Notes under the pieces: generated by a model
Told to the model about the DNA's origin: nothing
What the model saw: only the letters and a program-made list of their open reading frames with translations
The model's database searches: none
Program-made: the position numbers and the translations under genes
Assembly: GCA_033816765.1 (NCBI GenBank)
Contig: CM066294.1
Span: 3,256,599-3,320,598, forward strand
Length of the DNA: 64,000 bases
Source of the DNA: Nothopassalora personata
Taxonomy: Eukaryota > Ascomycota > Dothideomycetes > Mycosphaerellales > Mycosphaerellaceae
Reading direction: 5' to 3'
Shown here: in pieces, positions 28,197 to 55,890 of the stretch
Layout: every line of letters starts with the position of its first letter
Position numbering within the stretch: the stretch's first letter is position 1

Positions 28197-28246
28197 AGTC
28201 AAGTCGCGACCCTAAGCCTTGCTCAAACGAAGAACATGAAGAAGAG

Positions 28247-31200: not shown

Positions 31201-32752
31201 ACCACCGGACGTCTGGAAACACGTCGCCATGGACTTCATAGTCGACCTGCCGCCTAGCAAATCTCGCAGAGATGGCAAGACATACACCAATATCCTGACA
31301 GTAACAGACATGCTCTCCAAGCAGGTGCACTTCATCCCTACGGACCGTATGGATGCAGAACACACAGCTGACCTGTACTACCATTACATTATGCCCCATC
31401 ACGGCGTCGCAGAAATATTTGTGTCAGACCGCGGGACGCAGTTTGTAAGCGCCTTCTGGGAACGACTCTGCCAGCGGCTCGGCATCAAACAAAACCTGTC
31501 AACTTCCTTCCACCCAGAGACCGACGGTCAATCGGAGCGAACTAACCAAGCGTTAGAGCAATACTTGCGAGCTTTCAGTAACTATCTCCAGGACGACTGG
31601 GTTAACTGGCTGCCGACCGCGGAATTCGCGATGAACAACCATGTAGCTGCCAGCACAGGCGTTACACCATTCTTTGCGAACACAGGAAGGCACCCGAGCT
31701 TAGGGATGAATGTGAAGCCATCTGAAGCCCGTCCACAAGTCACGGCAGACAAGGTGAAACAGCTTGATGCAGCCGACACCTTTGCAGACAACCTCAGAGA
31801 CTTTGAGCAATTCACACAGGCCGTGCTCGAGCAAATGCGAGCGGAGCACGCTTGGACCCAAGCCAAGAACACGGATCAAGCTAATGTGGCACGTGCACCC
31901 GCACCAAATTTCCAAAAGGGCGACAAAGTCTTCCTCGACGCACGCAACATCCGCACTACACGACCATCCAAGAAACTCGACAGTAAAGCATTCGGTCCCT
32001 TCGAAGTCGTCGAGCCTATTGGGCGCCGTTCCTACCGCCTGCGATTCCCACCTAACTCTGATCTCGCCCACCTCCACGATGTTTTCCACTCGAGTCTCCT
32101 ACGCCGCGCACCCGAAGACCCGCTGCCTGGACAGCACCTGCCGCCGCCGCCGCCGCTCGAAATAGTAAGAGATGGTAAAGAATCGACTGAATGGGAAGTT
32201 CAAGAGGTGGTTGACTCAAGGATAAAATACCGCAAAGTCTGGTACAAGGTTTTGTGGAAGGACGGCACAATGAGCGAACGCCCATACACCTCACTGCTGC
32301 CAGGTGCTGAGGAGCTGGTGCAAGAATTTCACCGCGCATACCCAGACAAGCCACGACCTACGGAGGTTGACGATGAGTTCATGGCGCACGTATTTAGCGT
32401 CTCAGTTTATGGTCTCGCAGTGATCTCCGGAGACGCCACACCGCCTACGAAGTCCACGCCTCCTTTCTACTCACTCGCAGAAGGCATTCGGCTGGATGGA
32501 AGTTCTTCAAAGCGGCCTACCTCTTCAATGGGTGAGACCATGCAACAACACTCGCACACCAGCAGTCAGCCGTCATATGATGAGCAGCGAACAAGCAATA
32601 CCAGCAAGCACGCAAGTGCAACTGGCACGCAACGCAATAGCCTGAACGACGTCGCAGGAGCTCGTCTCGTGGAGGGGGGGGTACTGTCACGAAGCGACCT
32701 TGATTTGGATGTTCGGTCACGTGATCAGGGTCACGTGATCTCCCGGCGCTAG
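28247..32752 (+). CDS. pol: Pol polyprotein of the intact Gypsy element
   Basis: Single frame of 1501 aa. Aspartic protease DTGA is at 60-63. Reverse transcriptase runs from about 300, with YLDDVLIYS near 460. RNase H begins near ETDASDY at about 606. The integrase zinc motif (His-His-Cys-Cys) lies around 920-968, and its catalytic residues are in MDFIVDLP, SDRGTQF and QSERTNQ (about 995, 1060 and 1095). The GPF module (FGPFEVVEPIG) comes next, then a chromodomain-like WEVQEVVDSRIKYRKVWYKV near 1315-1360. The frame runs 68 bases into the 3' LTR, so the last 22 residues are LTR-encoded. All catalytic residues are present, so the element is probably competent. Expression without a shared frame with Gag would need re-initiation or another mechanism. 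Confidence 0.95.
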   Translation: MNLCTLRDDDYDNNELALSCAETAGGIQNVTVQPRQGKHLVCSAKVHSRLGPHNAKSLIDTGATDLFIHNNFVRTHHLDLIPLAKPKRLRLADGHRSMITHAVLVTLDVGAHRDQDLYYVTDLDTYDIVIGMSWLEQHDPEISFKNRTMTFNSTNCCLNHNFRSLVCVVTIDRRGKTHNVDPDFHSSDDIDIVSAQAFMKMSKDKDNQLFALWPEDLTPPPDDVPPEPPDKPPPQDPFRGEGEQLSCFAMAPEDWERFMTACKKSNPEEKLPAVLKDLALYFKHKSEFVLPEHGPSDHEIKLKPGTTPPYRKMIPMNAEQLAVVRKFLDDGLANGSLQESKSPCASPLLIVKKPGGGLRVCVDYRALNALTIKDRYPIPLIRETLDRLAKAKMFSKLDIVAAFNNLRIAHGQEWLTAFITRYGLYEFKVMPFGLCNGPSSWQRRINEVLREYLDRFCTVYLDDVLIYSDSEEEHVQHVRAVIKKVGEAGMPIDIDKSEFFVKKIKYLGLIVTTEGIEMDPVKVEAIQNWETPRNVKDVLAFLGFSGFYRRFIYEYSRVVRKLTALTKKDTPWQWDEGCQQAFDKLKKRFVSAPILAHFQPGLEVWIETDASDYVTAGVLSQKHPDPEKEGEFLLKPIAYFSKKMSPQECNYDIYDKELLAIVKTFEEWQYELVPEADDQKPIRVLSDHKNLEWFMSTKQLNQRQARWAEFLSQFNFKITYRPGVQGTKPDSLTRRSQDLPEGIDARTQYREQTILKPDNLDIVSAFAITTDPPTEPRRSARLANKANDENADDENANIPEVPKDDEHKAPEQALEDGSDLATVPDQPTPNEPDTPKEDWPELQQPADSDDNVLSMLNTAYKDPRFSMRMKRLQKDLRDRKTSEFLQQRKITASECRMQDGRLYVNNRLFVPEYRNLRTKIVQSYHDAPLAGHQGMARTHELILRHDLWWPFMQKDITQYVRNCYICRRSTPSRSRYQGTLSAHRTPPDVWKHVAMDFIVDLPPSKSRRDGKTYTNILTVTDMLSKQVHFIPTDRMDAEHTADLYYHYIMPHHGVAEIFVSDRGTQFVSAFWERLCQRLGIKQNLSTSFHPETDGQSERTNQALEQYLRAFSNYLQDDWVNWLPTAEFAMNNHVAASTGVTPFFANTGRHPSLGMNVKPSEARPQVTADKVKQLDAADTFADNLRDFEQFTQAVLEQMRAEHAWTQAKNTDQANVARAPAPNFQKGDKVFLDARNIRTTRPSKKLDSKAFGPFEVVEPIGRRSYRLRFPPNSDLAHLHDVFHSSLLRRAPEDPLPGQHLPPPPPLEIVRDGKESTEWEVQEVVDSRIKYRKVWYKVLWKDGTMSERPYTSLLPGAEELVQEFHRAYPDKPRPTEVDDEFMAHVFSVSVYGLAVISGDATPPTKSTPPFYSLAEGIRLDGSSSKRPTSSMGETMQQHSHTSSQPSYDEQRTSNTSKHASATGTQRNSLNDVAGARLVEGGVLSRSDLDLDVRSRDQGHVISRR

Positions 32753-36527: not shown

Positions 36528-37603
36528 ATTACCCCGCGTAGCGTATCGTTCGATATAAGCGCTATATGTTTACCGTACCGCCGTATCTTATACGGCTATA
36601 CCTTAATTCTTAGTATTCCGACCTCGACATTAAATCTAGGGTAGCTATTACTACTAATATATACTCGATTATAAACCTCGATTAGACCCTAGATAATATC
36701 TAATAGCCTTAGCCGAAGGACTATCGACTAATCGGGTTTAAGGCATTCCCTACGTTAAAATGTACAAGCACGCTCCGTAGTAGTAAGTAATGCGGTACTA
36801 TATTATAGACCCGTATTAAGATATAAGAGTACTATAAGCGTACGTATATATAGAAGAACCCCTAGGGTCGGGGTAGCGATAAGAGGCGTTAAACGAAGGA
36901 TATACCGAACGCTCTATAGAAGTATATCCCTATAGTATAGTAGCTCTTCCGATACGCCTAGTAGAAACGATATACTAAAGTAGAGCGTAGTACGACCGAG
37001 GTCGTTTACGAAACCTCGACGCCTAGCTAGGACGACTCGTTCTTTTCGTAGTAGAGTACTACTACGTACTAGCTATTTATAGCTATTCCGCGGATAGAGT
37101 CCCTCGTACCCGACTTCTTAGAGTATTAATCGACTACCGTGCTATAGCTCTAGTAGCTCGGGATCGACTAGTACCTTAAGGGTATACCTAAAGAGGATAT
37201 CTACGCCGCCGTACCGACGCCGAACGAGTAGAACGAGCCTATTCTCTAGACTATTACTAAAGCCCTCGACGTAGCCCTTCGAGCTATATAGTAGTAGTGT
37301 ATTAATCCAAAGGAGATAGTACTTATATTAGTACGGTAGTAGAGCCTCTATTTATTTCGTTCGAATCGGTTTTAAGGTCCGACTAGCGCCTACGCCCGCT
37401 TATTTATAGGCCGAGTTACGCTAGCGACGTTAACGGGCTATATCGAGTACGCCTTAAGGGCAATCTATTACTTCGCTCGTATCCTTATACTCCCTAACTA
37501 GTATAGCTTCGGGAGTATAGCCGATAGCTAGGGACCTCTTTCTATTGTCCGCGCTACTAATAAGTAGGTTACTATATAGTATACCCTAGTTAAGGCGGCC
37601 GAG
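36528..37603 (+). pseudogene. RecQ-like subtelomeric helicase remnant, N-terminal segment
   Basis: RIP-mutated frame with Gln/Trp-type stops, interrupted at 37603 by a Gypsy insertion (target duplication CCGAG) and continuing at 44491. A GFKAFPTLKCTSTLRSSK segment near 36735-36790 could be the Cys-containing N-terminal domain found ahead of RecQ-type telomere-linked helicases, but this is a weak match. It is assigned by continuity with the helicase motifs in the third segment. Confidence 0.5.
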
Positions 37604-38028
37604 TGTTATTGTCTCGTTCTAGGGCTAGTCTTAAAAGAGAGATAAGTCAAGTCACGTAGCGGTATTATTCTTTAGAGAGGCTAAAGCAAGCTAAGCGAAG
37701 ATAAATGATAGGAATAAGAGTTGTATTCCAATTAGTGAGATAGTAACATAAGTTGAACGCATCGGAACTATAAGGGTTTCTTAGCGTTCCTAAATATGAA
37801 AGGAAATCATTATTAATCTACTCCGATCTATTGATCTGTTTTATAGATTATACAGAGCAATAGATCAATTACTGTCGTACTCTATTCTAATCTGTTAATC
37901 TACTTTATAGATTATATAGAGCAATAGATTACTCTACAGTAGCTGTGCCTTTCTAGCTATAGTAGCGCCCACTTAACTGTAGAGGCTCTAATTAGTCGCT
38001 AAGCATTAGCTTAATCTAACCCGTAACA
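37604..38028 (-). repeat. 3' LTR of the RIP-mutated Gypsy element
   Basis: 425 bp. In the element's own orientation it begins TGTTACGGGTTAG. It is downstream of the chromodomain and purine tract. Confidence 0.92.
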
Positions 38029-38122
38029 CTATCCCCCTCTTAGTTTAGCTCGCCTCGAGCTTAGGTTATAGTCCTACCGCCTTATCCCTTCGTTTAGTGT
38101 TCTTGTTTATGTCTTCCTTAAT

Positions 38123-38608
38123 ATACTAAAGGCTCCTTCTTCCTCGAGTACTTCTCGTCGTCTTAAGTTAGCCGAAACTATCGACAACTTCGGAGAGATA
38201 ATAGTGCGGTCCTATTCTAACTATCGGGCGCATTCGCGGGTATGCAAGGTGCACGTGTTATCGGGGCGGTGCAATAAGTGTATTCGTCGAAACATCCGTT
38301 ATAATGTAAAGGTGTCGCGTTCCGAGTTCGATCGCCTTATCAGTAAAAAGAAGAAACTGCAGCGGTAGATAAAGGAAGCCCGCGAGGCTTAAGAGCGTGC
38401 CCGCGAGGCCCTAAATACTACGTATACGAAGGAAGAACGGTTACGTAGGTAGATGGAGCTCGTAGATTAGAGAGCTAACGAGGCTATTGCCGTAGAGTCG
38501 GCGGACCTGTTAGAGCTAGAGCAGGAGGAGTTAGCGGACTTCTACCTAGCTCCTAACACTTAGAATCTCCTTATCGACTAAGGTTATAATGTCTCCTCCG
38601 ATTTCTAG
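38123..38608 (+). pseudogene. Antisense accessory gene of the Gypsy element (Cys finger plus coiled coil), RIP-mutated
   Basis: Runs opposite to pol, just inside the 3' LTR. The old frame reads SSSSTSRRLKLAETI, then a cysteine cluster (SYSNY where the intact homologue has CSFC, then VCKVHVLSGRCNKC), then KVSRSEFDRLISKKKKLQ and a charged stretch ending YTKEERLRR and ANEAIAVESADLLELEQEEL. It aligns along its whole length with the intact antisense protein at 54933-55493 (VCRVHIKSGRCSEC, KEARLRR, EAIAVEEASIQVLEQGEL). Stops are TAG/TAA at positions consistent with Gln or Trp, and Tyr replaces two Cys (TGC to TAC), all as expected from RIP. The start is probably an ATG mutated to ATA at 38123. Function unknown. 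Confidence 0.8.
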
Positions 38609-41600
38609 TTATATAGTCCTCCTTCTCTTCGAGGTTCTTCCGGCGCTAGAAATACTTTATTAGAAGTAGCCGGCAGTTCTTAAGGTTTCTTTCTAGTTCC
38701 TAGGTATTTTCTAATTCGTCGTATCCTTTCTATTTAACAAGGTATTGCTAACCTTTCTTATCTAGGATTCTTTCGACTTCGAATTCGTTTTCTACTTCCG
38801 GCTCGAAATGGAAGCTCTCCTAGTAGGGTGTTTCGGCGTCTACGGGTTCTAACTTAGAGATATAGAAGACTAGGTAGATTCTTACGTCTAGTAGTAGTCG
38901 TAGGCGGTAGTTAACCGGTCCTATGACTTTATCGATAAAAAATGGTCCGACCTTAACGTAATCTAGTTTCTTAGTCTATCTTCTTGTTCTTAAGTTTTTT
39001 GTAAGGAGATAGACCTTATCCCACTCTTTTAGTAGAGGTGCTATTTTTCTCGTGTCCTACCGTTATTAAGACAGTTTGTGTTATATATCTTCGATCGCCT
39101 TACGTGTTTCTTTATGCACTTCCTTAAGAGTATCCGTCGTTACGATTACTCTTTCGGCTTGTAGGTAGGATCTAGGTGTTCTAAATAGGTTAGGATCTTT
39201 ACTAAAGTTCGCATAAAATGGTGTCGTTAAAGTTGTCTCTAATTTGTAGTCATTTAGTGCAATCTGCGCTATTGGCAGTAATGAGACCTAGTTATCTTAT
39301 GCATAATTGATATAGTGTCGTAGGTATTGTTCTAGCGTTTAATTTATCCTTTCGGTTTGTCCGTCTATTTCCGGATAATATGCTATTAACAGCTTATGTT
39401 TAATTCCGATCGTTCCTATAAGCGTCTTCTAGTAATTTGATGTGAATAGCTTATCTCTATCCGTTATAAACGCTTAAGGGAATCCGTAATATCGGATAAG
39501 TCTATCTAGTACGAGGTATCCGAGCTGCTCTACATTATACGTTTCCGATGTAGGAATGAAGTGTGCGTATTTCGTAAGTCTATTAACTATAACTAGTATT
39601 ATGTCGTATAGTTGTTTCGTAACTTAATCTCTTAACGGTAGGAGTTTCGTAATAAAGTCCATTATAACTTCGTCCTGTAGTTTCGTCGGTAGTGTCCTAA
39701 ACTGTAGGTGACCGTATTTTGCATGTCTCGTAGCCTTGTTTCGTTAGTAGTGTACGCATTGTTTAATGTAGCGTAATACCTTAAGTCTCATTTATGGGAA
39801 TAAGAAGCTACGCTATATTAGGTCTATTGTTTTTAAAGTTCTAGGGTGTCTATAAGTTAGTCCGTCGTAATATTATCGTATACATTCTTCTTCTCGATCC
39901 TTAGGTACTTAGTATTTTCCTTGCGATATAGGGAATTGTTCGTCCCTGTCGCCTAATATCCGTACGATATTATTAAATTTTCTTATGTTAGTACTAAGAC
40001 TTCCGTCGGGGTTCGTCTTTAATATCTTATGTTACACTAGTTCTTTTTCTTCTATGTAGTCGCTTCTTCGGCTTAGCGCGTCGGCGCGGCTATTCTCTCG
40101 TCCTAGAGTATATTTAATTTCGAACTTATACTATCCTAGTAGCTCCGACTAGCGGGCTTGCCTTCGGGTAAGTTCTTTCGTCGTCGTGAAGTACGTAAGA
40201 TTCTTATAGTTAGAAAGAATCGTTAACTTCGGTAAGCCCTCGATATATACTCTCTAATGTTGCATGGTAGTAACAATAGCTAGAAGCTCTTTATTATAGA
40301 TGTCGTAGTTCTATTCCGCTATAGTCATTTTCCGGGAGTAATAGGCTACTAGGTGTCTTTACCTATCGTGTGTCTATGTTAGACATACGCCTATTGCTAT
40401 ATTAGACGCATCGGTCTCGATGTAGACTTCCTTGCTACTATCGAATAGTCGAAGCGTAGGGGCTAAAGCGCATTATTCCTTAAGTTTCTTAAACGCTTTA
40501 GTCTATTCCTTTCCCTATTTCTAAGTAACGTCTTTTCTCGTAAGCATCGTTATTAGTGCTGCTATTTTCGCGTAGTCCTTAATGAATTTCCGGTTGTAGT
40601 TCGCTAGTCTAAGGAATAATTGTACGTCCTTAACTGTTTTCGGTTCTAGCTATTCTCTAATTAACTACGTCTTCGTAGGGTCGATCGTTATCCCTATAGT
40701 GCTAATAATGAAGCCTAAGAATTTAACTTCTTTCTTATAGAATTCGCATTTCTCGGGTGCCGTCTTGAATCCTAATTGCGTAAGTCGTTCGAAGACGTCC
40801 TAGACTTGTTTTATGTGCTTCTATAGGGATCCTTTCGTGTAGACTAGTATGTCGTCTATGTAAGCGATAACGCATACGTCGAGTAGGTCTCTAAGTGTTT
40901 CGTTAATAAGGCCCTAGTAGGATGCGGGTGCGTTAGTTAATCCCATTAGCATAACTAAGAATTCGTAGAGTCCGTATCTTGTCCTAAAGGCGGTTTTCTA
41001 TTCTTCTCCTTCTACTATTCGTATAGCATAAAAGGCATCTCGTAGGTCAATCTTCGTGTACTAGTCTAATCCGGTTAATCTGTCTTATGCTTCTTCGATG
41101 TTAGGTAGCGGGTATCGGTTCTTAATCGTAATCTCGTTTAACTTCCTATAGTCCTATACGAGTCGTAACTTCCCGTTTGCTTTTAGAACGAACATGTATA
41201 GAGTTCCTACACTTAAGGTGGATCTTCTTATCCATCCTTTAGCTAGCTTCTCCTTTAGCTATTCTCGTAGGGTCTGTAGCTCTTTCTTAGACATTTAATA
41301 TAGGGGTCCCTATAGAGGCTCTTTCCTAGCTAAATGTTAATCTTATAATCCTATAGGCGGTGCTTAGGTAAGGCGGTTTTGCCTCTCTCCTCTTTAAAGA
41401 GTCGCGACCACTTACGATACTCCTTAGGAATACTTAACTCTAAGATGTTAGTATTCTTCGATAGTACGTTACTTCTATTACTTCTAGTAACTTCGTAACC
41501 CGGCGGCCCTACGCTAGTGTCTATCCCGGTCGAAGGTGGTTCTTCTATCCTTCTAGTTGGCGTAAGCTATATCTCGTTTAGCTATTTCCTTGTCTTATCT

Positions 41601-44060
41601 ACTAGTGAACGCTACTACTACGTAGGCTAAATGTCGACAACGCAATCGCATTCCCTAAATGTAAGTACTCCTCTTCTCTAGTCGATTACTAGATTGTGCT
41701 TTCTCAACTAAGGCATACCTAATACTATATTATAACTAGCTATATTAGTAACATCTAAGGTAATATTCTCGTAGTGCTATTAGATAGCTAGTAGTAATGG
41801 TATCGTCTCCTATTCTACGCTAGGTAACGATAATCCGTTTACCGCGATTAACTCGTAACCCTATTTCTTCTTTAGGGTAGCTAACCCGTTTCTTCTTACG
41901 AAAGACTCGGAGATGAAATTCCCCGCTACTCCTAAGTCGATCATAACACTAGTCTTGTGTCCGTTAACGATTGCTTATGTCTAGAAAACTGTGTTTAATA
42001 TCGATGCGTAAGCCTAAGTATTACATAACTCCCTCCGGTCGCTTATTCCTAGGGAGCTAATCCTTTTCCCGAATAGTATGTAGTTCGCTATGCTTCGTGC
42101 CTAGAAGCTTCGGCTAGAACCTATAGCCCGTTACCCTATGTCTACACTTGTAGTCTATTACGTTCCTAGATCTTCTACGATTCTAAGTAGAGTGCGCGTA
42201 CGTGCTATACTGCTGTTCGTAGTTCGTTCGAGACGAAAGTTCCTACCGGTGTTAGATATCCGGTATCCGTTATTCGGCTTCCTATAGGTGGTCGTTCGAT
42301 AACCGCTTTAGCTAAGTTCTTAGTATTGTTCATGGTTAGGTAGCCCTATACTATGCCCCTTATTATATCGAGTGTCTTGTCGAATTTGTTAGGGTTTAGG
42401 TATCGTTTCCCTAAGAACTTTAGTAGGAATTCTTCGTGCCTTCGTTAGAGGTAGATAATTAACTTATAGAGTTTCTTTAGCGCATCTACCGTGAATGTAT
42501 ATACTTCGTTTTCGTCGTCGGTGTCGCTCTCTTCTTCTTCGGATGAGTCCTCGCTTAACTTCTCCGGTACGTAATCTTCTTCGACAGTATCTAGCTCGTT
42601 CGTTTATTGTTCTAGTACTAGTAACTAGCGTCCGTCCTATTCTAGATCCTAGTTTTCTTTATTGTCGTTATCGAAGTAAGATTCGTCTATGTCTACTTCT
42701 TAAAGCTTGTTTTATCTATACTAAGCTCCTAGGGTTCCTACCGGTTATCGTAGCTAGTACCCTACGCCTGACTTAGCGTCGTAGTAGGTTTAACACGAGT
42801 CCTAGTAATAGAATCGCTAGTAAAGGCTTCCGTAACCGTATCGAGATTCCTTCTCAATTTTATAGTTGACTCCTCGTGCTATTATACTAAACAATCTAAT
42901 AGTCTTTAATTATTAGTTATTCGGTAGTAGTGTATGTTGTTGAACATAGTATCCTCCTCGTCCTTATAAGGGGTCTAGGAGAGGCGTCGCAACCCGGTTG
43001 CTATCCTTCTCCTCTACTCTCTAGGTATAGTTAAATTGTCGGGGTCTAACACTGCTCCTAGATTTGCCTACCTTTAGTTACATTATATTAAACTGCTCGC
43101 GGCGCACTATATTTTTACCGCGGCAATCCCGCGTTATGTGGCCTTCCTTACTACAGGTATAATATGTGAGTTTTCCTTTTCCTTTAAAGGGCTTTCCGTA
43201 GCCCCTACTCTTATCGATCTTCCGTCCTCGTTAGGTAACGTCTAGTTCCATTAGCTGTAGTCTATAGTAGGGCTAGCTTTGTCGTAAGAATTCTCCCTTC
43301 GTAACGTATCCTCCTAAGGGTCTACGGTCCAGAGCATATCCTACTATTCCTCCTACTTTAGAGTCGTATCTCTTCTCCTAGTATCGTTCCTAGAGCTAGT
43401 TATCGATGTTAATCGACGCCTTTATTAGCTCTTCGAGGTTAGTAATCCGTCCCCCGTGTCTTATTAACTCGTCCTTAACGGAGTCTTTAAGTCCACGTCG
43501 GAACATAGTTATTAACGCCGTCTAGTCCCATCCGGTAATTTGTCCGTATTCTTCGAATTTGGCTGTATACTCTAAAGTAGACGTCTTCTGCTTTAGGTGT
43601 TGAATAATTTGTATAGCCTATTAGACTTCGTTCGAGGTTCTAAAGATTGATTTCATCTTATCTTTAAAGAGAGTGTAGCTCCTAAACATTCTAGTAGGGT
43701 CTAATCGTCCTATACCTTTAAGGTATTCCTTAAGGTAAGGTTTAATCTAGTTCTACGCACTTCCGCGAAGGTACGTAATGGCGAAGATAGTTCTTTTATC
43801 GGCATCGACTAGGTTAAACATGAGATACATATCCATCTAATTAATCTAGTCGTCGAACTTAGCCCTGTCTCTATAGAAGAGGTCTAGCTTAGCAGCCTTA
43901 ACGTCGTTCCTCCTTAGAGTAGGCTCATTATCGTTATTAGACTTATCGTCCTTCGTAGTGGTCTATTGTAGTAGCGCACGGCGGATGCTTCCTACTTCGC
44001 TAGGGGCGGGTGTTCCCCTACTAGCTACTTAAGGAGCGCTTATCCTAAGAGCGTTTAAAG

Positions 44061-44485
44061 TGTTATTGTCTCGTTCTAGGGCTAGTCTTAAAAGAGAGAT
44101 AAGTTAAGTTACGTAGCGGTATTATTCTTTAGAGAGGCTAAAGTAAGCTAAGCGAAGATAAATAATAGGAATAAGAGTTATATTCCAATTAGTAAGATAG
44201 TAACATAAGTTAAACGCATCGGAACTATAAGGGTTTCTTAGCGTTCCTAAATACAAAAGGAAATCATTATTAATCTGCTCCGATCTATTGATCTGTTTTA
44301 TAGATTATATAGAGCAACAGATCAATTACTGTCGTGCTCTGTTCTAATCTATTAATCTGCTTTATAGATTATATAGAGTAACAGATCACTCTACAGTAGC
44401 TATGCCTTTCTAGCTGTAGTAGCGCCCACTCAACTGTAGAGGCTCTAATTAGTCGCTGAGCATTAGCTTAATCTAACCCGTAACA
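44061..44485 (-). repeat. 5' LTR of the RIP-mutated Gypsy element
   Basis: 425 bp, the same length as the partner at 37604-38028. It differs by transitions only where I compared them, some mutated in one copy and some in the other. Confidence 0.92.
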
Positions 44486-44490
44486 CCGAG

Positions 44491-45266: not shown

Positions 45267-48200
45267 TTAATCAGGCTTAGTGTTGTTGATTGCCGCCTCG
45301 CAGTCAGCCATATTGAGCTGCTGCACGAAGTCGGCGTGCTTGTATCGATCCAGTGCCTTGGTGAATCCATCAGCTACTTGGTCGTTGGTGCCTATCCACT
45401 CAACGCTGATCTGGCCCTTGGCAATGCAGTCGCGGATGTAGTGGTAGCGGGTGTCGATGTGCTTAGTGCGGCCATCTACACCGTTGGTTCGCTTCGTGAT
45501 GTCGATCGCTGGCATGTTGTCTTCATGCAAGGTGATGGGGAATAGCGGTCCCTTGTAATCCACCTCCTTGAGCAAGTTGCCAATGCTGATGGCTTCCTTA
45601 GCTCCAAGCGTCAGTTGAACATACTCAGCCTCTGTTGAGGACAGAGTCACTATTGACTGGCGGCCTGACTTCCAGGAGACAGGTGCGCCCAGCATAGTGA
45701 AGACGAAGGCTCCTGTGGATCGCCTATCGTCAAGGTCGTCACCCCATGAGGTGTCGACATACCCCTTCAGCTGGAGGTCGTGAGAGCCCATGTCTGCACC
45801 CTTGAAGCACAGTCCACGGTACTTGTGGCCCACTAGATACGCCATAAGCTGCATCAACGCAGTCATGTGTTCTGTGGTTGGGTTTGCCAAGAAGCGACAC
45901 AGGAAGCATATCTGATAGCTGCAATCCGGTCGTGTCATCATAACAACCCATAGACACTCACCTGTGCCCTTCTGGTAACGGGCCTTCAGGTCAGAGTCCA
46001 CCTTGTGATCAGCTGGCGCCTTGCGGTACTGGTGCTTGGCATACATCGGTACTGCCGGCGGCTTGCCAGTGATGTTGTATTCGTCTGCTAGCTTCTGAAG
46101 ATAGCCGTCTTGGACGATGGAGAGGGTACGGTTCTTGCGGTCTCGAATGATGCGCATCCCCAAGTAGTGGTGGACGTCGCCAAGCTCACGCATCTTGAAC
46201 TTCTCTTGCAGCAGTGCCGCGACTGCTTCAACACCGGTCTTCGCGATGATGAGCAGGTCATCAACATAGATGACAATGATAGCGCCTGACACCTCGTGCT
46301 TGAACACGCAGATGTCGCTCATGATGGGGATGAATTGCAGGGTCCTCAAGAACTTGCTGAGCTCTTGATACCATAACAATGGGGATTGCTTCAATCCATA
46401 TAGAGCACGGCGGAGCTCGCAAACGTTGTTGCTCTGCTCGAAGCCGTGTGGCATCTCAACATAGACCTTTCGGCCTGTAATGATGGCGTTGAGGAAAGCA
46501 GTCATGATGTCGTACTGCTGACACTCAAGGTCGTAATGTGCGATGATCGCGTACAGCATGCGCAGTGTGGATGGCTTCACCACTGCTGCGTACGTGTCGT
46601 CGTAATCACCTTCACGCTGTGTATCGCCACGGACAACCCAGCGCGCCTTGAAGCGGCTGATCTTGCCGTTGGCATCCAGCTTGATGGCATACACCCATCT
46701 GCCCTTCAGCACTCGTGCGTCATGTGGCAGTGAGGCCTTGTCCTTGTAGGACCAAGTCTGGTATTGCTCGAGACTAGCGAATTCAGCTTCTTCAGCTGCG
46801 CGCCACTCGGCGTGTTGAGGAGTCTTCATTGCTGACTTGTGACTCTTCGGTATCACCACTGTGGCGGGATCTGGCCAGTCAGTGGATGCCATGAATGCCG
46901 AGACTGTGGCATGTGGCATGTCAGCCAGCTGCTTGCGAGCGGTCTTGCTGAGCGAGTGATACAGTGCCCTACGCTGGCGCCGATTGGCTTCGAATTGATA
47001 GCCGTTCTGAGGGTCGCGGACGTTGACTGGCGCACGACGAGTGCGCTGCGGGCGTGTTGAGGGTGGTGGTGCCTCCTCAACAGGATCTGGTGTATCAGGA
47101 GGTGTGATAAAGTCGTCTTCATCATCATCCTCGACAGATGGCTTGGGAGGTGTTGTTGGCTGCACCTCCGGAAAGTCGTCCGGAGCGGTGTCTTGATAGC
47201 TGTCAACTACCTCCTGGGCCAAGTCCTCATTCACCTGCTGGACTGGTGTCTCAGCAGGGCGGTTGATAATAGTGATGTTCTTAGGTGTAGCTACACCCCC
47301 AGAATCACCACCCCCAGGAGCCACACCACGCTCGGCTCCAGCGCGCTTTGGCTGAGTCGATGCCTTGTGGTTGCGCTCTACAGGGAAGATGTCGTCCAGA
47401 GAGATGTATTCATCATCAGCTTCAGGCTCCTCGGCCAAAGCAGTGATAGGCTCCTTGCCTTCAATGAACTGAACATCCTTGGTACGGAACACTCTATGCG
47501 CCTTAGCAACATAGACACGGTAGATGGTGCGGCTCTCGTATCCAACAAGCTTGCCCTCCAATGAGCGGGAGTCAAACTTCTCACCTCGGCCGACACTGTG
47601 GTCGTACACGAAGGCGCGGCATCCATATGCCTTGAGGTGTGACAGGCTGGGCTTCACTTCGCCCTTGCCTTGCCACGTGTTGATGACTTCCTGAGGTGAC
47701 AGTCCCTTGAGGGCTGCACTCGGAGTCAGGTTGAGTAGATAGACCGAAGCCTGCACAGCTTCTGGCCAGAGTGCCACTGGCAGGCCAGCATCAATCAGTA
47801 GCTTGCGTGACTGGACGCACACGATATGATTGCTGACCTCCGCACCGCCATTCTGTTCTGATGAATGAGGTGCTGTGATCTGAAGTGTGAAGCCCTCATC
47901 TTGTGAGAGCTGGGTGAGTGCGGTGCCTCCATACTCGCCGCCTCCATCTATGCGTAAGATCACAATGCTGGCATTGTATTCTGTCTTCACATGACGGACA
48001 ACGGTGCGGATATGCTGGGCAGCGCCATTCTTCTGCGCTGAACAGAACACTGTTCGCTGCAGGCTGGCGAGGCAAGTGAATAGCGTGAAGTATCTCTCCT
48101 TGCCAAGCCCAAGGTTGCGGACTGTCACTACATCGGCTGCGATGATGTAGTATGGTGTTGACGGTCGCACCATAGGTATGCGGTTATAGACTTTGTGCCC

Positions 48201-50051
48201 CAGTCCCATGCGACATGGTACGCATTCGCGTGGGTGCTTGCTGAGGTCACCGTTGCCGACAATGATGATGCGCTGATCGTTGTGAAGCTGCACTAGCTTG
48301 CGGCTGTGAATGTGTCCAAGGCGTCTGTGCCACAGGTCGCCAGTCGCGGCGATAGATGGCTCAACCTTAGATGATGCCAAAGCAGTCGGTGAATGCTTTA
48401 GCTTGAGGAATGGCAGTCCATTGTGACTGTAGCAGTGTGCCACCGTACGCGCACCATTCCCCTTTGTGAAGAGGATCTGGTCGTCGTTACGATAATAGAC
48501 ACCCTTGCGGCGGAGAGCCTCTGTCGAGATCAGATTGGCTGCAAGGCCTGGCACGTACAGCACCTGCGAGAAGTAGGTGATGCCGCATCCATACAGGTCC
48601 AATTGGATAATGCCACAGGCTGTCGCAGTGATGGTGCCCTTGCCTGTCCTAATAGGGACATTGCAGGGCCGATAATCCATCATATTGCTCAGCTCGTTAG
48701 TCATATGAGAAGTGCAGCCAGAGTCCACAACCCAGTCGGTTGGGCTCTTCGCTGCCAGCAGTGCGGAGGTGTCTTGAATGTCATCCTCGGCAGCCATATA
48801 CATGCTGTGGTTGCCGTTGTATGGAGTCATCAGATCCTCGAGGTTGTTCATGCCGTGAGCCGCAAATTGAGCGGTCTCTCCGGCGCGCTGCTGCTGAGGG
48901 TGGTCAGTGGTGTTGTTCACCTGCTGACGCTGTTGCTGGTTGCCATTCTGGTTGCCGTTCTGCTGTGGTGGGTTCTTTGGTTTCCATCCAGCAGGTGCAA
49001 GTTCCGGATGTAGGTTCCAGCAAGTTACAGGTTGGTGAGTGGTACTGCCACAACCATGGCATGGGTCATACTGTTGACGCTGCTGGTTGTTGCCACCGTT
49101 GCCGTTACCGCGGCCTCCTTTGCCACGGCCACGACCACCTCGGCCTCCACGTGGATTGCCGCCGCCACCACGGTTGCCATTGCCGCCATTGCCCTGTGGG
49201 TTGGCGGGTGGGGTGGGAGTAGTCTGCTTTGCTGCAAGGTTTGCGGTCTCGCTCTGCTGAGCAGCCGCCTCATCAAGCAGATCACCAATCACCTTCTCGA
49301 GTGTGATGGTGGTGCTGTCCTCGATCCTGCCAGTCATCTGCCTCAGCTGTTCGCGCTTTGATGAGGCGAATGCTGGGAAGTAGGGCGCGATCTGGTACAG
49401 GAAGCGGAACATAGCCTGGGCCTTGGATATGGCCAGTTCTGTGTTCTTGAGATTGGCAAGCTTTGCCTGATACTGCTGGCAATACTTGTCAAGGTTGGAG
49501 CCACTGTAAGCATGTGACTCGAAGTCCAGATACAACGAGTATTCCTCGGACTTGCCGGTCTGGCCATATGTTGATTTGAGATGATCCCATAGTCCATCCG
49601 GAGCCTGATAGGCTTTGCAGTTGTCGGCGATAGACTGACTGCAGTTGGCGATGATGAGGGCGCGAGCTTGATACTTCTTCGCCTCCCATGCCTCAATCCG
49701 GTCGTCAAGCTCGTATTGCTGTTCACTCGGACGGATTGTAGGTCTTGGCTTGAGTGCTGTTGAATCGACAAATCCATACAGCTGCTCGCCACGCAGGACT
49801 GACTCGAGCATGTCGCTCCATCTCGGATAGTCGTCCTTGCCCTGGAGCTTGCTGACACCAGGGGTGCTATTGGTACTACGACCAACCATGTTGCTGAAGA
49901 TGCGACTCGTAGTCGCTATTGCTGGAAGCTTCTTCTTGGTTACAGCAGCCGACTCGGCTTGCTGTTGTTGCTGACTCTGGTCCCCGGTCACAGACTGCTG
50001 TGCCAGTGGTACCTCGAGTCCTGTGATGTTACCGTTATCGTCAGTATCCAT
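45267..50051 (-). CDS. Gag-Pol polyprotein of the intact Copia element
   Basis: One frame of 1594 aa. Gag occupies about 1-320, with GKDDYPRWSDMLESVL near 70 and a Gly/Arg/Asn-rich stretch. A zinc knuckle PCHGCGSTTHQPVTCW lies near 330. Protease is VVDSGCTSHMT near 440. The integrase zinc region has HRRLGHIHS near 580 and CVPCRMG near 612, followed by the DDE core. Reverse transcriptase has YVDDLLIIAK near 1262, and RNase H has STEAEYVQL near 1474 and DTRYHYIRD near the end. Integrase precedes RT, the Copia order. No frameshift or stop between gag and pol, as in many Copia elements. All expected catalytic motifs are present, so it may be active. Confidence 0.95.
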   Translation of the reverse strand: MDTDDNGNITGLEVPLAQQSVTGDQSQQQQQAESAAVTKKKLPAIATTSRIFSNMVGRSTNSTPGVSKLQGKDDYPRWSDMLESVLRGEQLYGFVDSTALKPRPTIRPSEQQYELDDRIEAWEAKKYQARALIIANCSQSIADNCKAYQAPDGLWDHLKSTYGQTGKSEEYSLYLDFESHAYSGSNLDKYCQQYQAKLANLKNTELAISKAQAMFRFLYQIAPYFPAFASSKREQLRQMTGRIEDSTTITLEKVIGDLLDEAAAQQSETANLAAKQTTPTPPANPQGNGGNGNRGGGGNPRGGRGGRGRGKGGRGNGNGGNNQQRQQYDPCHGCGSTTHQPVTCWNLHPELAPAGWKPKNPPQQNGNQNGNQQQRQQVNNTTDHPQQQRAGETAQFAAHGMNNLEDLMTPYNGNHSMYMAAEDDIQDTSALLAAKSPTDWVVDSGCTSHMTNELSNMMDYRPCNVPIRTGKGTITATACGIIQLDLYGCGITYFSQVLYVPGLAANLISTEALRRKGVYYRNDDQILFTKGNGARTVAHCYSHNGLPFLKLKHSPTALASSKVEPSIAATGDLWHRRLGHIHSRKLVQLHNDQRIIIVGNGDLSKHPRECVPCRMGLGHKVYNRIPMVRPSTPYYIIAADVVTVRNLGLGKERYFTLFTCLASLQRTVFCSAQKNGAAQHIRTVVRHVKTEYNASIVILRIDGGGEYGGTALTQLSQDEGFTLQITAPHSSEQNGGAEVSNHIVCVQSRKLLIDAGLPVALWPEAVQASVYLLNLTPSAALKGLSPQEVINTWQGKGEVKPSLSHLKAYGCRAFVYDHSVGRGEKFDSRSLEGKLVGYESRTIYRVYVAKAHRVFRTKDVQFIEGKEPITALAEEPEADDEYISLDDIFPVERNHKASTQPKRAGAERGVAPGGGDSGGVATPKNITIINRPAETPVQQVNEDLAQEVVDSYQDTAPDDFPEVQPTTPPKPSVEDDDEDDFITPPDTPDPVEEAPPPSTRPQRTRRAPVNVRDPQNGYQFEANRRQRRALYHSLSKTARKQLADMPHATVSAFMASTDWPDPATVVIPKSHKSAMKTPQHAEWRAAEEAEFASLEQYQTWSYKDKASLPHDARVLKGRWVYAIKLDANGKISRFKARWVVRGDTQREGDYDDTYAAVVKPSTLRMLYAIIAHYDLECQQYDIMTAFLNAIITGRKVYVEMPHGFEQSNNVCELRRALYGLKQSPLLWYQELSKFLRTLQFIPIMSDICVFKHEVSGAIIVIYVDDLLIIAKTGVEAVAALLQEKFKMRELGDVHHYLGMRIIRDRKNRTLSIVQDGYLQKLADEYNITGKPPAVPMYAKHQYRKAPADHKVDSDLKARYQKGTGECLWVVMMTRPDCSYQICFLCRFLANPTTEHMTALMQLMAYLVGHKYRGLCFKGADMGSHDLQLKGYVDTSWGDDLDDRRSTGAFVFTMLGAPVSWKSGRQSIVTLSSTEAEYVQLTLGAKEAISIGNLLKEVDYKGPLFPITLHEDNMPAIDITKRTNGVDGRTKHIDTRYHYIRDCIAKGQISVEWIGTNDQVADGFTKALDRYKHADFVQQLNMADCEAAINNTKPD

Positions 50052-53300: not shown

Positions 53301-53484
53301 CGGTAGTACGAGGAGTATCTAGGCTATAGTTATAGCGGTACGGGCGTTAGATAAGTTTAGGAATGTTAATAGTACTAGTACGTAACCGGTAGCTAGTAAT
53401 AGGTAACCGATCTATCGAATAGAATATAACCCGACTTAGATAGATCTACCGTAATATCCCGATTAGTAGATTATCGTATATATT
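50396..53484 (+). pseudogene. RecQ-like subtelomeric helicase remnant, helicase core and C-terminus
   Basis: RIP-mutated, reading toward the telomere. Motif I reads LPIGSGKSLLF (51675-51710), motif II RIVIDEYYL (51934-51962, normally DEC/DEH), motif III YLSATLPP (52041-52064) and motif VI SGRAGRDG (52489-52517), preceded by two TAG codons where QQ is usual. This motif set is RecQ-type, as in the telomere-linked helicases of other fungi. Stops are mostly TAG/TAA. Together with 36528-37603 and 44491-44861 it amounts to about 4.5 kb of former coding DNA. The 3' end is uncertain; the last part (53400-53484) may be downstream sequence, where the gag-only element has inserted. Confidence 0.82.
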
Positions 53485-53803
53485 TGTTACGGATCGGTCT
53501 GGGGAAGCCCGTAGCCAACCAATCGATGCCAGCAGACCAGCGGATGCACCCGATATGCAGAGTGCTCTCAGTGCTCTCGGGTGCTCTCTCGAGAGAGCAG
53601 AGAGAGCAGAGAGAGCAGGAAAGATCACGCCAAGACACGGCACTATATAGACGACGCTCTTTTGCAAGTAGATAGGAGCCTCGTGCTCAACTCATTTTAA
53701 GTATACACCATATACTGTTTGGGACCACTACCTTCTCAACGAGTCAGAGACATCACTACAAAGATCCAAGCCCAGTTGGGATAACGTACAGCGGTTCCTA
53801 ACA
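53485..53803 (+). repeat. 5' LTR of the gag-only element
   Basis: 319 bp. It contains a run of GAGAGAGCA repeats (about 53587-53620) and a TATATAG segment near 53644 that could be a TATA box. Confidence 0.93.
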
Positions 53804-53835
53804 ACTTTGAGCACCACCACCAGGGCCCTTTGCAT

Positions 53836-54828
53836 ATGTCTGGGAGAGACGCTACCCGGAGTCCGTTACGACAACAGCCACAGTCAACTGGCATCACGGA
53901 ACGAATGAGCGAAATGTCGATTACAGGAAGCAGCAAGAACAACAACACTCCTATGGGTATGCTGAACCCATTGGACCACCACCGTGCACCTAAGGTGTCT
54001 ACGCCGGAGACGTTCGACGGGACCAAGGACAAACTGGAGGCTTTTCAACTGCAGGTTCAGTTGTACCTTCACTTCAACGCACACCAGTTTCAAGGCGAGG
54101 CTTCTAAAGTCTTGTACGCCGCATCCTTCCTACGAGGAAAAGCAGCTAGAGGATTCCGACCATACCTCAAGGACTGGCTACACAACCAGGGCGAGGGAGA
54201 AACACCGAAAACGGAAACTCGAAAAATTTTCCACGACTACGACGAGTTTGAGACGAAACTCGATGATCTATACGGGATACCAAATGAGGAGGTATACGCC
54301 GACCGACATATCCGACAACTTCGACAGACTACTTCTGTAGCGCTGTACGCCTCAGAATTCCAAGGATATGCCGCCGACCTGGAATGGAACGACGCAGCTT
54401 TGCGATCGCAGTTCTACCTCGGGCTGAAAGACAACGTCAAAGCCGAACTATCCCGAAACGCCAGCGTCGTTACGCTAGGGGCGATGATTAGGGCAGCAAA
54501 GGAGATCGACGAAAGGCTCCAGGAGTTGAGGTACGACTGACACGTACAGCCTGGATACCAGAGACCCGCCGCGGGCGGAAGAGGGGGCTTCAAGGCCAGA
54601 AGTCAGGACCCTAATGGTTACGGAGACCCAATGGAATTGGACGTAACGGAACGTAGGACAGGAAGGGGGCTAAAGAGCAAAGGTTCCACCTGCTACGTAT
54701 GTGGCGAGCAAGGCCATTTTGCAAGGAACTGCAAGAAAAAGAACATGGTTAGCCGCGAGTTCAACGCAATGATTCGCGAAGAGAATGCATACCAGGAATG
54801 CGAGAGCTTTCTCTCGAAATCTGCCTAG
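53836..54828 (+). CDS. gag: Gag with zinc knuckle, interrupted by one in-frame UGA
   Basis: The first part runs from the ATG at 53836 to UGA at 54538-54540 (234 aa). It is a Ty3/Gypsy-type capsid domain: ETFDGTKDKLEAFQLQVQLY, YAASFLRGKAARGF, YDEFETKLDDLYG and LRQTTSVALYASEFQGYA. The same frame continues for 95 codons after the UGA and includes the CCHC knuckle CYVCGEQGHFARNC, ending at 54828. So capsid and nucleocapsid are separated by a single stop. UGA could come from a CGA codon by one C-to-T change, or it could be read through; the next bases are CAC, not the well-known leaky CUA context. There is no trace of protease or RT after it. Confidence 0.88.
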
Positions 54829-54932
54829 CAGAAACGACCTGACGATAAAGGCATTAAACAGCGGCTTCTTGATTTAATGACCTAGGACACAGAAGTCAAC
54901 ACTACGACACGGAAAACAGATAAAGGACGAAC

Positions 54933-55493
54933 TTACGACGAGACCAACTCCGAGAAGGATTCAGGAAGGAGGAGATTCCCATCCAAGGACAAGCTAGGGT
55001 CGAAGACCGAAGGATCGGAGGCAGGAAACCACCAGTCTTCCGGGATAGAAGGCGGAGCGGCCTCGAGCTCCCCTTGTTCTAACACTTGGATGCTCGCCTC
55101 CTCGACAGCGATCGCCTCGCCCTCGCGCTTTTCGTGCAGCTCAAGCTGACGACGAAGACGCGCCTCCTTCGCATAGGCTGCCGCGATCTCTTCACTCTTG
55201 CGAACGAGATCATGACGGACCGCTTCAAGCTTACGGGTGAGCTTGTCCCGTACGGACTGAAGGGACTTCCACTCAGCAGGAGTGACTCGCACGTCACAAC
55301 CCTTGATGTTGTGTTCGTTGCACTCCGAACAGCGGCCCGATTTAATGTGGACACGGCACACCTTTTTCTCACGAGTGCAGAAAGAGCACGACTTGACCAT
55401 AGTAATCCCGTTCTCTCGAATGAACTTGGCAAGCTTCTTGCGACGATGCGTACTGGTTTTGGTGACGGGAAGGGAAAGGGAAGAAGAAGACAT
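54933..55493 (-). CDS. Antisense retroelement-encoded protein: Cys-rich finger and coiled coil
   Basis: Intact 186-aa frame on the strand opposite to gag, ending just inside the gag side and starting 74 bases from the 3' LTR. A basic N-terminus (THRRKKLAKFI) is followed by a six-cysteine cluster, CSFC...VCRVHIKSGRCSEC...GC (about residues 36-67). Its C-x2-C-x6-C-x8-C-x2-C-x6-C spacing is close to a Zn2Cys6 finger. Residues 75-140 are a charged coiled coil (LTRKLEAVRHDLVRKSEEIA), and the tail is acidic with EDWWFP and DPSLSLD. It could bind DNA or RNA and dimerise; that is inference. A RIP-mutated homologue lies in the same relative place in the Gypsy at 37604-44485. I recall similar hypothetical proteins in other fungi, but know of no assigned function. 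Confidence 0.85.
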   Translation of the reverse strand: MSSSSLSLPVTKTSTHRRKKLAKFIRENGITMVKSCSFCTREKKVCRVHIKSGRCSECNEHNIKGCDVRVTPAEWKSLQSVRDKLTRKLEAVRHDLVRKSEEIAAAYAKEARLRRQLELHEKREGEAIAVEEASIQVLEQGELEAAPPSIPEDWWFPASDPSVFDPSLSLDGNLLLPESFSELVSS

Positions 55494-55566
55494 CGTTGGA
55501 TGACAAAGTTGGAAAGGAATGACATCTTGTAAGCTTCGGGACGAAGCTAGGCTAGAAGGGGGATGG

Positions 55567-55885
55567 TGTTACGGATTGGTCTAGGGAAGCCCGTAGCCAA
55601 CCAATCGATGCCAGCAGACCAGCGGATGCACCCGATATGCAGAGTGCTCTCAGTGCTCTCGGGTGCTCTCTCGAGAGAGCAGAGAGAGCAGAGAGAGCAG
55701 GAAAGATCACGCCAAGACACGGCACTATATAGACGACGCTCTTTTGCAAGTAGATAGGAGCCTCGTGCTCAACTCATTTTAAGTATACACCATATACTGT
55801 TTGGGACCACTACCTTCTCAACGAGTCAGAGACATCACTGCAAAGATCCAAGCCCAGTTGGGATAACGTACAGCGGTTCCTAACA
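55567..55885 (+). repeat. 3' LTR of the gag-only element
   Basis: 319 bp. Compared with the 5' LTR it has T for C and A for G near the start (GGATTGGTCTAGGG) and G for A near 55840. It is preceded by the purine tract at 55553-55566. Confidence 0.93.
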
Positions 55886-55890
55886 ATATT

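Follow-up and report, generated by a model that had tools for sequence, protein, structure and literature searches.

Why should a small retrotransposon that carries only gag keep a second gene on the opposite strand? The question is raised by a 2.4-kb element at 53485-55885 of the window, i.e., the 64,000-nucleotide stretch of the Nothopassalora personata genome (54.5 Mb) analysed here (GenBank contig CM066294.1; G000:C8:3256599-3320598 in our numbering). The initial annotation had reported an intact protein of 186 amino acids (aa) encoded opposite to gag, just inside the 3' long terminal repeat (LTR). Both the open reading frame (ORF) and its placement are confirmed. A distance of 73 bp separates the start codon of this antisense ORF (aORF) from the 3' LTR. 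The LTR pair shows 99.06% identity over 320 aligned bases. With moderate confidence, we propose that the antisense gene is a self-encoded regulator of the U3 region of its own element, and that gene and U3 have been moved together as a regulator-operator cassette.

Conservation of the antisense frame

Five genome searches (about 150 scored matches each) and a separate search for the group called type III (114 matches) were made, so the counts given here are lower bounds, and the findings within the genome rest on one genome. Among the best 150 of 747 candidates, the window protein has at least 31 full-length copies at 98–100% identity, at least 26 of them without a stop, together with many further relatives. 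The relatives, 141–240 aa long, fall into three types. Fourteen families with open frames have been read for type I, which has a short loop in its cysteine cluster (F1–F5 and F14, the window protein belonging to F1), and type II, which has a long one (F6–F10, F12, F13 and F17). In this tally F9 and F11 count as one family and F15 as F3, while F10 (86% identical to F9) is kept separate. Type III emerged from five gag copies that lacked a known neighbour, all five of which have an antisense ORF of 159–205 aa. It comprises six families with open frames according to tblastn, and four of the six have been read as sequence. Homologues also occur in other species, where one search returned 83 proteins and another 10, as protein records without genomic context; the genera represented include Cladosporium, Cryoendolithus, Elasticomyces and Sporormia. 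Two scans of viral_contigs gave 42 and 34 pattern matches, with 0 confirmed.

The placement is highly regular. In 64 of 65 loci (L001–L065, the exception being L060), the ORF is antisense and a polypurine tract (PPT)/LTR signature lies 34–146 bp from its start. L001–L030 are F1 copies, including the window copy (L001), while L031–L065 were picked from the match lists to span the families, not by LTR context. An ordinary host gene that happens to be near LTRs is ruled out, since 64 of 65 loci are inside elements.

A survey that starts from gag leads to the same picture. We have scored the best 121 of 1050 candidates for the 330-aa Gag, all of them 98–100% identical in Gag, and 117 have next to them an antisense ORF from one of the listed families. 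Twelve families are represented, and a few of the ORFs contain a stop: F1 30 times, IIIa 23, F6 and IIIf 13 each, F14 11, IIIc 7, F7 6, IIIb 5, F4 3, and F10, F13 and IIIe 2 each. For three of the remaining four copies (L072, L073 and L075), an F4-type ORF is shortened to 141 aa, with the cluster kept and the tail lost; the fourth (L074) lacks any antisense ORF that reaches 60 aa.

We further calculated the non-synonymous (dN) and synonymous (dS) substitution rates with YN00. For the F9/F10 pair, dN is 0.084 and dS is 0.519, with 13, 16 and 72 differences at the three codon positions. For the F6/F7 pair, dN is 0.296 and dS is 1.737. Thus, dN/dS is 0.16–0.17, and the third-position excess is likewise seen in three type III pairs. 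The 30 F1 copies read represent 10 haplotypes, and a stop occurs in 4 copies, in every case through a C-to-T change. Purifying selection acts on the antisense frame. The ORF of the window is therefore not a chance frame, considering its full-length near-identical copies, the constant antisense place, the codon-position bias and dN/dS. The initial annotation had suggested that the element benefits from the protein, and had named homologues mostly at ordinary gene loci away from LTRs, or a dN/dS near 1, as signs to the contrary. Neither of these signs was found, and usefulness is supported by the purifying selection, the presence beside nearly all gag copies and the place within elements.

It had also been claimed that the same antisense gene is kept in a second element of the window, a complete Gypsy element altered by repeat-induced point mutation (RIP) at 37602-44486. 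This is partly right. The second element does carry a RIP-mutated homologue in the same relative place, but the ORF is 72% identical to family F2 and 42% to the window ORF, and since it belongs to a different family, it is a homologue and not the same gene. The RIP indices are 1.71 and 0.42 in this element, compared with 0.95 and 0.99 in the gag-only element.

The protein and its likeness to Zn(II)2Cys6 factors

The fungal Zn(II)2Cys6 domain follows the spacing rule C-x2-C-x6-C-x5-12-C-x2-C-x6-8-C. Types I and III match this spacing, whereas type II has six cysteines with a longer loop between Cys2 and Cys3, and so departs from the rule. With the Pfam family Zn_clus, the window protein gives an E-value of 0.72, below the cut-off. 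Among 71 relatives, 11 have matches with E no higher than 1, the lowest being 0.012, and the best score, that of the type III protein L068, is 20.4 bits against a cut-off of 21. Since the cut-off is not reached, we call the domain Zn2Cys6-like and do not count it as a filed member. A host factor of the same genome, L071, is a Zn_clus member (1.5e-9). Type III aligns with it at a genome-wide E of 1.8e-4, with all six cysteines aligned, and the pairwise E-values against this one chosen protein are 1.5e-8 to 3.2e-4. In the same comparison F1 gives 0.99.

The structure model of F1 consists of a cysteine domain and a 73-residue coiled coil, and it has weak structure matches, to Zn2Cys6 DNA-binding domains. 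No Zn2Cys6 structure was matched by the model of the long-loop type II, a result that excludes no known fold. Searches of PDB sequences with our profiles mostly returned coiled coils, as did type III profile A7; LAC9, a Zn2Cys6 protein, was picked up by A1 (E 0.6) and A3 (E 2.5), but not by A2. DUF3716 is matched by 5 of 71 relatives at E up to 1 (best 0.011) and is below its cut-off in the two shown. APG6_N, TPD52 and similar Pfam rows are judged to be coiled-coil noise, and TRP28/PF04195 is not among the Pfam matches listed. Overall, the antisense protein looks like a small cluster of the Zn(II)2Cys6 kind followed by a coiled coil and a short acidic/aromatic tail. Compared with fungal factors such as Gal4, Hap1 and Pho7, it has the six-cysteine cluster and the coiled coil in common, but at 141–240 aa it lacks a large regulatory domain, it is encoded by a retrotransposon, and its type II loop is longer.

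Of the roles suggested in the initial annotation, that of a DNA-binding regulator is best supported. We have found nothing that points to antagonism of RIP or silencing; as for RIP, the family itself has many RIP-mutated copies. An envelope protein (Env) is rejected on orientation, the gene being antisense in 64 of 65 loci. P0081, recorded as Env of Cercospora beticola metavirus 1, is a homologue of the family (E 7.2e-27) with some cluster cysteines changed. It is likely the contig described in excerpts of PMC8537984, where the name env was given by similarity. That name is probably wrong.

Exchange of the gene with U3, and the repeats in U3

The backbones and the antisense genes differ greatly in their divergence. 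Among ten gag-only elements, gag DNA is 95–100% identical, while the aORFs are 28–48% identical, with the exceptions of F6/F7 (65%) and the F9–F11 group (86–99%). For F6/F7, dS is 0.005 in gag (NG86) but 1.96 (NG86) or 1.74 (YN00) in the aORF, which excludes mutation alone as the source of the aORF diversity. The full elements F3, F5 and F8 are 96–99% identical over about 5.2 kb, and their aORF identity between types is 31–40%. For instance, F3b and F5 share 97.1% identity over 5644 bp from within the LTR to the end of pol, 99% in R-U5, and one 48-bp match at the PPT, while BLASTN gives no match between them in the aORF or most of U3. In the alignment of LTRs from 8 of the 10 gag-only elements (without F9 and F11) and 5 full elements, the switch lies near a TATA-like core, with R-U5 nearly constant and U3 variable. 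Such divergence on a constant backbone is beyond mutation, but is accounted for by a swap of the aORF and the adjoining U3 between near-identical backbones, the U3 half usually moving with the gene.

The breakpoints vary. The distal U3 is common to F1 and F4 although their aORFs are 39% identical. In F12 the U3 is that of family IIIb (L066), letter for letter, and the aORF is a type II gene shortened at its N-terminus; we read F12, present as one copy among the scored matches, as a mismatched recombinant. Separately, the relic antisense ORF of L052 (G000:C6:4935347) combines an F17-like N-terminus with an F8-like coiled coil and an F17-like U3, its cluster being partly missing.

Do the exchanged U3s carry sites that a regulator could bind? 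Repeated 7-mers exceed dinucleotide shuffles (P ≤ 0.01) in 16 of 21 U3 rows (10/13 and 6/8, the set of eight including L074, which has no aORF) and in none of 14 R-U5 controls. The five U3s below the threshold are F6, F12, F13, L066 and L067, of which F12 and L066 are identical. The repeat arrays are thus confined to U3, and they differ between families. In 11 of 14 elements, U3 contains a core, GAKCA, at 3.9–8.1 per 100 bp, compared with 0–0.6 in R-U5 and 0.3–0.6 internally. By eye and word counts, motifs are held in common by F13 and F17 (CGACC), F14 and R4 (AGATCC), and F8 and F9 (CTGATCA), and each of these pairs joins a gag-only element to an element with the full-type LTR core (only the 3' end of F17 and R4 was fetched). 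Across backbones (9 by 6), aORF identity correlates with U3 similarity (r 0.28, p 0.028; p 0.021 with k=5 and 0.036 with k=7). Within the gag-only elements r is 0.47 (p 0.013), and for 13 families 0.31 (p 0.012).

We have also looked at the base that precedes the core. It is A in F1, F2, F3 and F7, mostly A in the mixed F4 and F6, and A in F14 by way of its AGATCC repeats; it is T in F5, F8, F9 and F10. In these 11 families, residue 62 (the fourth after Cys5) is invariably N in the A class and G in the T class. It is the sole column that is monomorphic in both classes yet different, and the switch is present in both the short- and the long-loop clades. Such a column arises in 3 of 330 labellings, and as many merely disjoint columns as under the real labelling in 96 of 330, relatedness being ignored; the pattern was spotted post hoc, and the base classes were assigned by ourselves. 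Among relics fetched later and judged by eye, L054 and L058 fit (N and A, RIP-altered), as do L062 and L064, which, however, are members of the F2 and F9 clades; L059 fits weakly (G and T), L057 does not, and L055 is unreadable. F13 and F17 have G at residue 62 and C before a different core. We propose residue 62 as a candidate specificity residue.

Several observations weigh against a pairing of protein and motif. F12, F13 and F14 do not fit the GAKCA core. The U3 of F14 is more similar in words to F2 (0.33) than to R4 (0.21). Without F10, the correlation drops to 0.21 (p 0.20) in the gag-only elements and to 0.13 (p 0.15) in the 13 families. The type III protein L067, with G and a preceding A, contradicts the residue-62 rule. 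On the whole, the co-variation of motif and protein is only suggestive of a regulator-operator pairing.

A candidate regulator of its own U3 and other explanations

The place, the selection on the frame, the exchange between backbones, the Zn2Cys6 homology of one subtype and the confinement of the repeat arrays to U3 are established by the above analyses, whereas expression, DNA binding, target and sign of the regulator are inferred. The antisense ORF would encode an element-borne transcription factor, with a binuclear cluster, a dimerising coiled coil and a short acidic/aromatic tail. The gene is probably expressed from the 3' LTR, whose U3 is directly upstream of it, while the same U3 in the 5' LTR would drive gag. 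A protein that binds the repeated motifs of this U3 would control both the gag promoter and its own. Since gene and U3 are neighbours at the 3' end of the element, they could be exchanged by a single template switch; and as both LTRs obtain their U3 from the 3' copy during reverse transcription, one switch after pol would replace gene and operator in both. Near-identical backbones would thereby come to carry one of about 20 regulator/operator cassettes.

Activation seems somewhat likelier than repression, owing to the conserved acidic/aromatic tail. A repressor, which is a sub-case of the own-U3 regulator and shares in its probability, would provide copy-number control and immunity, with a new cassette escaping as heteroimmune phages do. 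It would agree with about 20 families on very few backbones, with the many families whose LTR pairs and copies are identical or nearly so, read as recent bursts, and with the three F4-form copies that keep the cluster and have lost the tail; given the tail of the other proteins, we regard it as somewhat unlikely. The protein may instead be a sequence-specific binder aimed at host genes or chromatin, the U3 repeats serving other host factors. Its domain is in common with a host factor, and many elements generally rely on host factors for their U3s, but here gene and U3 are exchanged together and the U3 motif type tracks the aORF clade across backbones; we regard this reading as unlikely. A low probability also goes to an accessory protein outside transcription, acting in RNA packaging, nuclear entry or targeted integration, with a cysteine domain that binds RNA or protein. 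The long coiled coil and a covarying hairpin beside the PPT are consistent with it, as is the nuclear import proposed for plant antisense ORF proteins in excerpts of PMC7264820, which also discuss roles of antisense RNA in LTR elements. Such a protein leaves the co-exchange with U3 and the repeat arrays unexplained, while an antisense RNA that matters by itself, with an incidental open frame, is highly improbable and largely refuted by the codon pattern, i.e., the third-position excess and the low dN/dS in the protein frame.

The regulator of its own U3 could be taken one step further. Each pair of antisense gene and U3 may be a private regulatory identity, so that elements with practically the same gag or gag-pol backbone would escape control or free-riding by resident copies when they acquire a foreign cassette through template switching, and each new cassette would found a new burst. 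We hold such heteroimmune retrotransposons to be possible rather than probable. As analogies only, with no homology claimed, HBZ of human T-cell leukaemia virus type 1 is a regulator whose antisense expression begins in the 3' LTR, and lambdoid phages exchange repressor and operator as one block in their immunity regions. If borne out, the regulator/operator pair would give eukaryotes a counterpart of modular phage immunity regions, and could supply hosts with new regulators and binding sites.

Antisense ORFs are known from plant Gypsy elements (PMC7264820, PMC11963269), and brtn, which the present gene resembles by its description, is an antisense extra gene of Boty, a fungal Gypsy element in Botrytis cinerea (PMC7264820; Zhao 2011, cited in PMC8365987); these and the following papers are cited from excerpts. 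For the plant class aORF-3R, between pol and the 3' LTR (Grande gene23, RIRE2, Retand TRP28), a part in DNA binding or regulation has been suggested (PMC7264820, PMC11963269). The present genes agree with this class in their antisense place between gag-pol and the 3' LTR (64/65 loci) and their presence in most copies (117/121). They differ in having a Zn2Cys6-like domain instead of TRP28, and in very small elements whose gene and U3 are exchanged between near-identical backbones. In crapaud of Podospora, one internal region is combined with many U3 variants that differ before the TATA box; recombination during reverse transcription has been suggested, and the cause of the U3 diversity is left open (PMC10787394). 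The ORFs drawn there are GAG and POL alone, and the available sections mention no antisense gene. Antisense genes in LTR elements and hypervariable U3s are thus each known by themselves, but among the open-access literature matches listed, none links such genes to Zn2Cys6 or to an exchange of U3. Two questions are open, namely what antisense genes do in LTR retrotransposons (PMC7264820) and why certain LTR families vary in U3 alone (PMC10787394). They meet here in an antisense gene that has the look of a sequence-specific regulator and is swapped along with U3. Heteroimmunity, if true, could also explain families such as crapaud. For experiments, the system offers a putative regulator and operator that are directly testable and come in about 20 natural versions, together with a candidate specificity residue and a naturally occurring mismatch, F12.

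The features of the two elements in the window are collected in Table 1.

Table 1 Positions of the features in the gag-only element and in the RIP-mutated element of the window
Feature	Position	Strand
Target-site duplication ATATT, 5' copy (5 bp)	53480..53484	.
5' LTR, 319 bp, TGTTA...TAACA	53485..53803	+
gag, 330-codon frame, one TGA in the window copy	53836..54828	+
Antisense ORF F1, 186 aa, intact	54933..55493	-
Predicted coiled coil, residues 72-144 of the antisense ORF	55062..55280	-
Zn2Cys6-like cluster (residues 36-66 of the antisense ORF, with N62 as candidate specificity residue)	55296..55388	-
Covarying hairpin/palindrome immediately before the PPT	55532..55548	+
PPT	55555..55566	+
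3' LTR	55567..55885	+
U3 of the 3' LTR, the hypervariable half	55567..55722	+
GAGAGCA repeat array, both orientations, inside U3	about 55641-55702	
Target-site duplication ATATT, 3' copy	55886..55890	.
Complete Gypsy element, RIP-mutated, with gag, pol and two LTRs	37602..44486	-
pol of the RIP-mutated element	42127-38601	-
gag of the RIP-mutated element	44043-42052	-
Antisense ORF of the RIP-mutated element, F2-like, with internal stops	38129..38680	+

The palindrome or hairpin before the PPT recurs at the same place in other elements and covaries across families. In ten chosen pieces, 5 of 7 pairs are altered on both sides, and the covariation score is 0.403, compared with 0.243 after shuffling and at most 0.159 after sliding. 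Elsewhere in the window, long open gag/pol frames of other, apparently intact LTR elements are found at 25536-32752 (886 and 1501 aa) and 45267-50051 (1594 aa), so several kinds of retroelement look recent here. Gag-only elements also form head-to-tail arrays in which LTRs are apparently shared (G000:C12:1355698-1366475, L004/L005 and L041), and six type IIIa copies are spaced 2056 bp apart. RIP-mutated relatives of F6 (80%) recur near contig ends and on small contigs (L056 at G000:C9:5367, and C20, C21, C30, C31, C33, C34, C39 and C40), and are perhaps subtelomeric.
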